NCBI GenBank assembly: GCA_018335035.1
Contig: JAGXKT010000012.1
Coordinates: forward strand, 1-64,000
DNA from: Phycisphaerae bacterium
Lineage (GTDB): Bacteria; Planctomycetota; Phycisphaerae; SM23-33
DNA length: 64,000 nt
Direction: 5' to 3'
In this document: one piece after another, positions 30,908-38,057 of the stretch
Layout of the letters: every line of letters begins with the position of its first letter
Numbering within the stretch: the stretch's first letter is position 1
Notes under the pieces: model-generated
Told to the model about the DNA's origin: nothing
Databases searched by the model: none
The model's input: the letters and a program-made list of their open reading frames with translations, nothing else
Made by a program: the position numbers and the translations under genes

Positions 30908-34924
<4,017 letters not shown>

Positions 34925-34972: not shown

Positions 34973-36574
34973 TTAGGCATCCTCGGCGTCCAGCTCGCAC
35001 AGGAGTTTGTATTCGACGGCGTCAACCAGCGCCAGCCAGGACGCTTCGATGATATTCTCGCTGACGCCGACACTGCCGAAGTACCCGTGGCCGCTTTCGT
35101 CGTGCCAGTCGATCATCACGCGGACCTTGGCGGCGGTCTCCGCGGCCGTGTTGACCACTCGCACCTTGTAGTCCACCAGGTGCAGCGCGTCAACGGCCGG
35201 ATAATGACACCGCAGCGCCGCGCACAGCGCGCGGTGCAGCGAATCGACGGGCCCGTGCCCTTCGGCGACGGTATGACCAAGCTCGCCGTCCACCCGCAGC
35301 TTGACGATGCCTTCTGTGCCCGCCTCGGTGCCGTCGTGTTTGAAGATCACGCAGCGGTAGTGGTCCAGGTCCCACAACGGCCGATACCACGTCCCCCCCA
35401 GCGTCTTGCGGATGAGCACCTCGAAGCTGGCCTCGGCCGCCTCGAACTGCCAGCCGTCGCCTTCGAGTTCCGCCAGGCGGTCGAGGACGCGACGCTGGGC
35501 GTCCTTGTCCTCGGCGAGGTTGAATTTCGCCGGGGCGTTGGCGGCGATGGTGCTGAGCCCCGACAGCTCGCTGACCAGCACGCGCCGCGTGTTGCCGACC
35601 TGCTCGGGGGCGATGTGCTCGTACGTCCGGGCGTTTTGCTGCACGGCGTGGACGTGCATGCCGCCCTTGTGGGCGAAGGCGCCGGGCCCGACGAACGGCT
35701 GATTCTGCCGCAGGTTCAGGTTCGCCAACTCGCAGAAGTAGCGGTTCGTCTCGGTCAGGTGTTCCAGCGTGCCGGCGCGGAGCACGTCGTAGCCGTACTT
35801 CAACGCGAGATTCGCCACCACGGCCGTCAGGTCCGCGTTGCCGCACCGCTCGCCGACGCCGTTGAGCGTGCCCTGGACCTGCACGGCGCCGCTGCGAACC
35901 GCGGCCAGCGTGTTGGCCACGCCCACGCCGGCGTCGTCGTGGCAGTGAATCGCCAGTGGCGCGTCCGGTAGGGCGTCCCGCGCGGCGGCGACGCCTTCGG
36001 CGATCTGTTCGGGCAGCGAGCCGCCGTTGGTGTCGCACAGCGCCAGGCAGCTTGCCCCGGCCTCAGACGCGGCGCGAAGCGTGCGGATCGCATAATCGGG
36101 GTTCGCCCGCCATCCGTCGAAGAAATGCTCGGCGTCGAAGACGACTTCGCGCCCCGCATCGACGCAGTAGCGGACGGAGTCGGCGATCATGGCGAGGTTC
36201 TCGTCGGCGTCGGTCCGCAGGACCTCGCGAACGTGCAGGTCCCAGCTTTTGCCGACCAGCGCTACCACAGGCGTCCCGGCCGCCAGCAGCGCCGCCAGCC
36301 CGGCGTCCTCGGCCGCCGCGACGCCCTTGCGCCGTGTCATGCCGAAGCCCACGATTTTCGCATGCGTCAGCCCCCGCGAGCGGATCTGCTCGAAGAACGC
36401 CTGGTCCTTCGGATTGCTCAGCGGGTAGCCGCCCTCGATGTAGTCCACGCCGAGCTTGTCGAGCGCCTCGGCGGTGGCCAGCTTGTCCTCGACGGACAAG
36501 CTGATGCCCTCGGTCTGCGCGCCGTCGCGAAGCGTGGTGTCGTAGACTTCGATGCGTTGTCCGTGTGATGGCAT
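34973..36574 (-). CDS. cimA: (R)-citramalate synthase
   Basis: CimA condenses pyruvate and acetyl-CoA to citramalate, the threonine-independent entry to isoleucine. The 533-residue product has the HMG-CoA lyase-like barrel ([41 protein letters not shown]) and a C-terminal LeuA-type regulatory domain (about 400-530). Motifs such as [12 protein letters not shown] and [10 protein letters not shown] favour citramalate over isopropylmalate synthase. It lies 48 bases before valS on the same strand. Its leader has a full attenuator. The ribosome site just before the ATG is weak (CTGGAAC). Confidence 0.93.
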
Positions 36575-36591: not shown

Positions 36592-36624
36592 AGAAAAACG
36601 GCCCTGAGGGGCTGCCTCAGGGCC
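36592..36624 (-). terminator. Intrinsic terminator in the cimA leader (attenuator)
   Basis: On the minus strand a perfect 10-bp stem GGCCCTGAGG / CCTCAGGGCC (36624-36615 and 36609-36600) with a 5-base loop is followed by GTTTTTC. It lies 18 bases before the cimA ATG, downstream of the leader peptide, so it must be conditional. Confidence 0.9.
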
Positions 36625-36665
36625 TTGGGACGAAGATAAAAGTCCGCCGCACCTGCCCTAAGGCA
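36613..36665 (-). promoter_or_regulatory. Antiterminator pairing overlapping the leader stop codon
   Basis: The segment UGCCUUAGGGC (36665-36655), which spans the stop codon of the leader peptide, can pair over 11 bases (one G.U) with GCCCUGAGGCA (36623-36613), the 5' arm of the terminator. The two pairings exclude each other. A ribosome at the stop codon would cover the upstream arm and allow termination. A ribosome stalled at the Ile/Val codons 6-11 codons earlier would leave it free. Confidence 0.8.
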
Positions 36666-36792
36666 CACGAGGGGCAACTACCGCAATAATGGCGATAGCG
36701 GGGCAGCCGCCCGGCCGCCCGTCCTGGCAGACGCATTCGACGCCGACCGCGGTCGCCGTCTCGCACAACGTTCGTGTCTGCGACAGCCGCAT
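36658..36792 (-). CDS. cimA leader peptide rich in Ile and Val
   Basis: A 44-codon frame starts at ATG 36792 with GGGAG (36804-36800) 7 bases upstream. It ends PAIAIIAVVAPRVP: three Ile and three Val codons within 11 codons (positions 33-43), just before the stop. Ribosome stalling here when charged Ile- or Val-tRNA is scarce would control the terminator below. The first 30 residues are cysteine- and threonine-rich and probably have no function as protein. The pattern matches the classical ilv/leu leader peptides of enteric bacteria but is independent in sequence. Confidence 0.82.
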   Translation of the reverse strand: MRLSQTRTLCETATAVGVECVCQDGRPGGCPAIAIIAVVAPRVP

Positions 36793-36827
36793 CTCAGGAC
36801 TCCCGTGCCTCTCAGGGCATGCTGTAG

Positions 36828-36855
36828 GATATATCGGCCGGCGGGCGGACGTCAA
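36828..36855 (-). promoter_or_regulatory. Promoter of the cimA leader
   Basis: Reading the minus strand, TTGACG (36855-36850, 5 of 6) is followed after 16 bases by TATATC (36833-36828, 4 of 6). The start near 36821 gives a leader peptide ATG about 29 bases into the transcript. Confidence 0.65.
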
Positions 36856-36947: not shown

Positions 36948-38057
36948 GTGACCCCTGCCGAAGAGCGACAGATCAAGCATCAACGCGTGGTGGGCTATCT
37001 CGACACGCACGATCTGGACGGCGTGCTGCTGAGCCGACGCTGCAACTTCAACTGGTATACCGGCGGGGCGCGCAATTACGTCGCCGAGGCCTGCGATGCG
37101 GGAAACAGCGCCCTGCTTGTGGAGCGGGCGGGGGCGACCGTTCTGGCCAACAACACCGAAGCGCCCCGGCTGGCGGCCGAGGACCTCGCTGCCGCCGATC
37201 TCGATTTTCAAACGTTCGACTACTACGACGCCACGGGCGCGGGAAAGGCATTCGACGCGGCACTGAGCGGCAAGCGGGTCGCCGCGGATGTCCCCGCGGC
37301 CGGACGCGAACTGCCATCGCTCGACGCGATGTTTGATCGCCTGCGATGGGAGCTGACGCCCGCCGAGATCATGCGATATCGCGCTGTGTGCCGAGACGTG
37401 GCGGAGGCATTGGAGGCGGCGGCCCGAACGGCCGAGCCGGGCCGCAGCGAGCACGACCTGGCCGGCGAAACGGCCCTGCGACTTCGCGCGGCCGGCTGTA
37501 CGCCCTGGCTCTTGCTGGTCGGCACTGACGAGCGCATTGCCGCCTATCGCCACCCCTTGCCCACGGACAAACGCCTCGAACGCAAGGCCATGCTCGTGAC
37601 CTGCGCCGAGCGGGGGGGGCTGGTCGCGGCGATGACGCGGCTCGTGCATTTTGGGGCGATTCCGGACGAACTGGCCGAGCGTCACCGGGCGGCCGCAACG
37701 GTCACCGCGGCGCTGCTGACGGCGATGCGCCCGGGCCGGACGCTGGGCGCGCTGTTCGCTGAGGCGCAGGCGGCGTTTCGTGAGGCCGGCTTCGCCGACG
37801 AGTGGCGCGCGCTGCACGTGGGCGGCTCGTGCGGCTACCTGCCGCGCGAACGCAAGGCCGCACCCGGCGACGACACGGCGGTGCTTGCCGATCAGGCGTT
37901 TGCATGGAACCCCTCGGTCGCCGGAACCAAGTGCGAGGACACCGTCCTGTGCACGGACGAGGGCTGGCAGCGCCTCAGCGGGCAGACCGGCTGGCCGATG
38001 GAGGCGGCGGCCTGGAAGGGCGAATCGTTCGAACTACCGGGCATTCTTTCCCGATAG
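36948..38057 (+). CDS. M24 (aminopeptidase P-like) protein, probably inactive
   Basis: The 369-residue product has the two-domain layout of aminopeptidase P/creatinase proteins, with a creatinase N-terminal domain (about 1-130) and a pita-bread domain. Four of the five metal ligands of active family members seem replaced: the Asp pair appears as MLVTCA and AAMTRL, the GHGIG histidine region as HVGGSCGY, and the first Glu as AFAWNPSV. Only the second Glu (KCEDTVL) remains. Related proteins with WNPS are known in other phyla, but their role is unclear. The start is a GTG (36948) with weak ribosome site. Peptidase activity is unlikely. Confidence 0.75.
   Translation: MTPAEERQIKHQRVVGYLDTHDLDGVLLSRRCNFNWYTGGARNYVAEACDAGNSALLVERAGATVLANNTEAPRLAAEDLAAADLDFQTFDYYDATGAGKAFDAALSGKRVAADVPAAGRELPSLDAMFDRLRWELTPAEIMRYRAVCRDVAEALEAAARTAEPGRSEHDLAGETALRLRAAGCTPWLLLVGTDERIAAYRHPLPTDKRLERKAMLVTCAERGGLVAAMTRLVHFGAIPDELAERHRAAATVTAALLTAMRPGRTLGALFAEAQAAFREAGFADEWRALHVGGSCGYLPRERKAAPGDDTAVLADQAFAWNPSVAGTKCEDTVLCTDEGWQRLSGQTGWPMEAAAWKGESFELPGILSR

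Follow-up and report, generated by a model that had tools for sequence, protein, structure and literature searches.

In the window, i.e. the whole 64,000-nucleotide stretch of DNA analysed, the minus strand carries a promoter, a short leader reading frame, cimA and valS (Table 1). The cimA product exceeds the NCBIfam equivalog cut-off for citramalate synthase, and on its sequence the assignment is unambiguous. valS begins 48 bp past the end of cimA, and it was found 3' of cimA on the same strand in all family loci with enough downstream sequence, except L013, which has a stop within its cimA frame. The operon is cimA-valS. About 980 bp are inserted in frame within valS of the window (33311-34291, minus strand), between profile positions 205 and 210; the insertion encodes a RAYT-like transposase (REP_Tyr_transpos, 75 bits, below the cut-off of 80) flanked by opposed clusters of REP/GTGVSPV repeats. 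The enlarged gene may encode a functional ValS, or the insertion may be an assembly matter. About 90 bp from the promoter starts a divergent gene (36948-38057, plus strand), whose product has weak similarity to Xaa-Pro dipeptidases.

Table 1. Features of the cimA-valS leader region and the genes that follow it
Feature	Position	Strand	Remarks
Sigma70-like promoter TTGACG-16-TATATC	36828..36855	-	TTGACG 36855-36850, TATATC 36833-36828, spacer 16; letters and promoter scan
Segment 1, putative 5'UTR protector (TGCCCTGAGAGGCACGGGAG)	36800..36819	-	MFE of the untranslated transcript; covarying counterpart in relatives
Shine-Dalgarno site GGGAG	36804-36800	-	
Leader ORF, 44 codons + TAG	36658..36792	-	ATG at 36792, TAG at 36660-36658; peptide MRLSQTRTLCETATAVGVECVCQDGRPGGCPAIAIIAVVAPRVP
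Control codons ATC GCC ATT ATT GCG GTA GTT (Ile/Val run)	36676..36696	-	
Segment 2, 5' arm of the antiterminator (TGCCTTAGGGC)	36655..36665	-	Contains the stop codon
Segment 3, 3' arm of the antiterminator (GCCCTGAGGCA)	36613..36623	-	Doubles as 5' arm of the terminator
Intrinsic terminator and U-tract	36592..36624	-	10 bp, loop of 5
cimA, (R)-citramalate synthase	34973..36574	-	ATG at 36574; TIGR00977, 644.6 bits, cut-off 450
valS, valyl-tRNA synthetase	30908..34924	-	Sole copy found in the genome; in-frame REP/RAYT insertion

A promoter scan returned a promoter-like site at 36855-36826, where 0.1 such sites are expected in the region, and the relatives have TTGAC...TATAAT-like boxes at the corresponding position. 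The C-terminal part of the 44-codon leader reads PAIAIIAVVAPRVP. The antiterminator consists of 11 bp including one G-U pair. The terminator (GGCCCTGAGG-cagcc-CCTCAGGGCC, 36624-36600, followed by GTTTTTCT) has a fold z-score of -4.35, and none of 200 shuffled sequences was equally stable. The features of an attenuator are present: a leader ORF with a ribosome-binding site between the promoter and the first gene, an intrinsic terminator between leader and cimA, and an antiterminator, exclusive of the terminator, whose 5' arm can be covered by a ribosome that has reached the stop codon. An earlier, sequence-only reading of this DNA had given the order promoter, 44-codon leader, Ile/Val run, antiterminator, terminator and cimA, and its description proved exact to the base.

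Taken by itself, the element of the window is a single sequence known from DNA alone, and it could also be read as a constitutive terminator or insulator behind a chance ORF, with cimA expressed by read-through or from another promoter. The comparison with relatives makes this reading hardly credible. The combination of leader, terminator and antiterminator was found in 16 of the 28 cimA upstream regions of relatives from the same family and order, and in only 8 of 1053 control windows of similar sequence (0.8%). Conservation, covariation and frame-specific codons, seen in about 20 genera, also speak against a constitutive terminator, and the arrangement is no coincidence. The covariance model R1 detected the element 5' of cimA in at least 20 of the 35 genomes of the family, and also in the two order-level genomes in which a cimA was identified; about ten family members lack it at this gene. 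Because R1 was trained on 15 cimA elements, the weight rests on the independent matches, namely G023 (E = 2.5e-23), G001 (3.2e-12) and all matches at ileS. Most relatives bearing the element encode a leader peptide of the form M-R-x...(V/L)-R-A-G-I-I-x-(I/V)...V-P-stop; the VRAG motif is absent from the window's own leader. In distant genomes the covariance model gave weak matches (E>1e-4), most of which were no more than bare hairpins; they were not counted among the relatives.

Some individual loci deserve mention. In L009 (genome G006) the attenuator 5' of cimA is interrupted directly behind segment 2 by a sequence with REP-like hairpins, and its leader ends prematurely; the switch is apparently broken. 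Two loci of the same class (L034 and L035) retain the start-codon hairpin (GUGCGGACAG/CUGUCCGC) and the VRA(G) motif 5' of cimA, and neither an Ile/Val run nor a clear terminator was seen there. A further covariance-model match (L177 in G265, E = 7e-8) has a Val/Ile-containing leader before an ORF of 235 amino acids.

In the alignment of the relatives 95% of the antiterminator cells and 96% of the terminator cells are paired, and pairing falls to 63% or less for both helices when the partners are slid by one to three columns. The two pairings, which the sequence-only reading had claimed to be mutually exclusive, are both kept in the relatives and have one arm in common. The same reading had proposed to check whether relatives conserve the Ile/Val run and show covariation in the stems, and the comparison confirmed both.

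Two covarying helices had been missed earlier, one pairing the 5'UTR with the leader end, the other the start codon with the middle of the leader. The first, helix 1:2, joins in the relatives a segment just 5' of the Shine-Dalgarno site, mostly GGCACGC, to the leader end (GCGUGCC) over 7-10 bp. Compensatory pairs occur in L002 (GGCGCGCAGC/GCUGCGCGCC), L009 (GGCAUGC/GCAUGCC), L013 (GGUUGG/CCAACC) and L007 (GGUACGUG/CACGUGCC). The pairs belonging together were more stable than permuted ones (-14.6 vs -12.6 kcal/mol, p=0.00025, 18 genomes, kinship ignored), and the helix also appeared in six ileS leaders that were outside its definition (p=0.04, permutation, kinship ignored). In the second helix the start region UGCGGAC pairs with the mid-leader sequence GUCCGCG, which corresponds to the VRAG codons (-16.3 vs -12.7, p<5e-5, 22 sequences, permutation, kinship ignored); L036 has a compensated pair, GCGAACG/CGUUCGC. 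In the window segment 1 overlaps the Shine-Dalgarno site, and its helix with the leader end is extended (36819-36800), so that according to the folding model the antiterminator arm would be almost entirely sequestered when the ribosome is absent.

A terminator-bearing leader in front of an amino-acid gene would also fit control of cimA by a T-box or a riboswitch, the ORF being incidental. We consider this very improbable: covariance-model searches of the window and 15 relatives gave no Rfam match at the gathering score, the matches at E up to 10 were at chance level, and T-boxes, riboswitches and other Rfam RNAs, including the Rfam leader families, were rejected on this ground. Moreover, the Ile and Val codons are restricted to one frame. 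In the stretch following VRAG they account for 48% of the codons of the relatives in frame, against 4% and 1% when read out of frame, and almost all relatives have the stop codon or the leader end inside the switch helix.

The choice among synonymous codons in the run is biased. GTA is enriched relative to the cimA genes (18/38 vs 26/723, p=2e-14), and so are ATT and ATA taken together (26/51 vs 59/358, p=2e-7); the enriched codons GTA and ATT are the rare ones within cimA itself. Constraints of RNA structure could contribute to this bias. The same element occurs 5' of ileS in at least eight genomes (G007, G010, G012, G018, G021, G025, G033 and G035), in weaker form in G030 and G036, and as a remnant in G031. 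The ileS leaders are rich in Ile and poor in Val codons (I29:V5), whereas the cimA-valS leaders are balanced (I51:V51; Fisher p=2.5e-4; Mann-Whitney p=2e-4 for the Val counts). The control codons therefore track the downstream genes; no other evidence discriminates as well in favour of sensing through codons. The sequence-only reading had matched the codons to the pathway of cimA. This holds for Ile, which is made by the citramalate route; cimA alone leaves the Val codons half explained, and they are accounted for by valS, overlooked in that reading, because it shares the operon.

The conservation of VRAGII reaches beyond the Ile/Val run, as would be expected if a metabolite made the nascent peptide, through its conserved Arg-Ala-Gly-Ile-Ile, arrest the ribosome, the Ile/Val codons being of secondary importance. 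However, the VRAG codons form the 3' strand of the covarying helix with the start codon, which can explain why they are conserved, and the window's leader does without the motif. The agreement of codon identity with the downstream gene also argues against peptide arrest, as does the enrichment of rare synonymous codons, for which a peptide mechanism has no need. We regard peptide arrest as improbable, and favour sensing through the control codons.

Folding calculations that included a ribosome footprint were consistent with such a switch, provided that the RNA was cut before segment 4, which was needed to reproduce switching. Under these conditions the mean probability of the antiterminator over 18 sequences was 0.64 with the ribosome stalled at the Ile/Val codons and 0.00 with the ribosome at the stop codon. 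In the window the antiterminator is opened best by a ribosome stalled at GTA or GTT, and poorly by one stalled at the first Ile codons. Simple equilibrium folding did not reproduce the switching, since the terminator prevailed in almost all states; the switch must therefore be kinetic, i.e. decided during transcription. Without a ribosome the modelled leader of the window goes to the terminator, whereas the relatives are mixed, with antiterminator probabilities from 0 to 1 before segment 4. In the model, then, 'default off' in the absence of a ribosome is firm for the window and not general, and given the mixed behaviour of the relatives the 5'UTR helix is a putative protector.

On this sequence evidence the element very probably controls the cimA-valS operon by ribosome-mediated transcription attenuation. 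We infer that the leader is translated, that the ribosome can stall in it, and that termination is regulated with the participation of helix 1:2. RNA polymerase would transcribe the leader with a ribosome following behind. If Ile-tRNA or Val-tRNA were scarce, the ribosome would stall on the Ile/Val run and leave segment 2 free, the 2:3 antiterminator would form ahead of the synthesis of segment 4, and cimA-valS would be transcribed. With both tRNAs charged the ribosome would advance to the stop codon inside segment 2, masking this segment and allowing the 3:4 terminator to form. In an untranslated leader the 5'UTR segment would pair with the leader end (1:2), probably assisted by the hairpin between start codon and mid-leader, and termination would be favoured.

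The nearest named genomes belong to Planctomycetota, the closest being a Phycisphaerales MAG with 69% CimA identity. Among 80 named cimA loci, assigned to phyla by hand from the record titles, the combination of leader, terminator and antiterminator was detected in 8 of 17 from Planctomycetota, against 1 of the 63 loci from elsewhere (p=7e-6). The eight loci, which include two Gimesia, Planctomycetaceae, Gemmataceae and Phycisphaeraceae, have unrelated leader sequences; the two Gimesia loci (L056 and L057) have a comparable cimA leader. Ile-rich leaders precede cimA in two genomes of other classes, and in another Planctomycetota genome (L221) a leader with six Leu codons, MNNQSTNFSLLLSLLLRRGS, lies directly 5' of a leuA-like gene. 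In view of these loci, leader attenuation of genes for branched-chain amino acids looks common in Planctomycetota. In the genome of the window itself a search gave no significant second copy of the element, and its ileS (L203) has no such leader.

A different kind of leader was seen at ilvB. Val/Leu-rich leader ORFs (for example ...RALPALLAVVVR-stop) precede this gene on contig 48 of the window's genome (L248) and at L231, L234, L236, L243, L244, L246, L247, L249 and L250. In several of the ilvB leaders a hairpin covers or follows the stop codon but lacks a U-tract, and an intrinsic terminator was absent after 12 of 13, which suggests a second, perhaps Rho-dependent, type of attenuator.

It is instructive to compare the element with known attenuators. 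Like those of ilvGMEDA, ilvBN, leu and trp of E. coli it has a leader, here probably translated, in which pathway codons lie close to the stop, an antiterminator and a terminator that exclude each other, and, as a putative counterpart, a protector pairing; it differs from them in leader sequence, phylum and target. The protector segment of trp lies within the leader coding region, whereas segment 1 of the cimA element is in the 5'UTR, just 5' of the Shine-Dalgarno site or overlapping it, and a second hairpin includes the start codon. The Corynebacterium ilvB-II motif and the ilvB-OMG and Leptospira ilvB motifs likewise combine a uORF rich in codons for branched-chain amino acids with a proposed terminator and antiterminator (PMC10272879, where uORFs are given for ilvB motifs 'from various bacterial phyla'), but they precede ilvB, and no Rfam model matched the cimA element. 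Leaders with cognate codons control synthetase genes in Streptomyces (leuS and trpS; PMC1262725, which also covers actinobacterial ilvB), in Rhodobacterales (cysS, uORFC-8-2; PMC8632094) and in E. coli (pheST). In contrast to these, valS is here in an operon with a biosynthetic gene, both behind a single leader that mixes Ile and Val codons, and related elements with mainly Ile codons precede ileS. A survey from 2010, to which leader-peptide systems had previously been known only in Proteobacteria and Actinobacteria, added the His leader peptide of Bacillus hisZ/hisS* (PMC2965389); it resembles our case in lying outside those two phyla, and differs from it in amino acid, phylum and sequence. 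We found no published attenuator on cimA, on valS or in Planctomycetota in a literature search of incomplete coverage. This agrees with the sequence-only reading, to which such a system seemed not to have been reported from this phylum or for cimA. Both the phylum and the targets are probably new, and what we describe is probably the classical mechanism of ribosome-mediated attenuation with a variant architecture.

A broader proposal, to which we give slightly less than an even chance, is that the elements form a distinct attenuator family of Planctomycetota, common to cimA-valS and ileS, in which the codons are retuned for each target. The 5'UTR:leader-end helix and the start-codon hairpin would hold the operon silent as long as the leader is not translated, hence the switch would read translation initiation as well as the charging of Ile- and Val-tRNA.

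If our interpretation is correct, classical attenuation extends to a phylum for which we found no report of it, and it would link isoleucine synthesis by the citramalate route to the supply of valyl- and isoleucyl-tRNA synthetases. The cimA-valS and ileS versions amount to a natural experiment, in which the control codons agree with the target gene, and the conserved helices around the start codon lead to precise, testable predictions.
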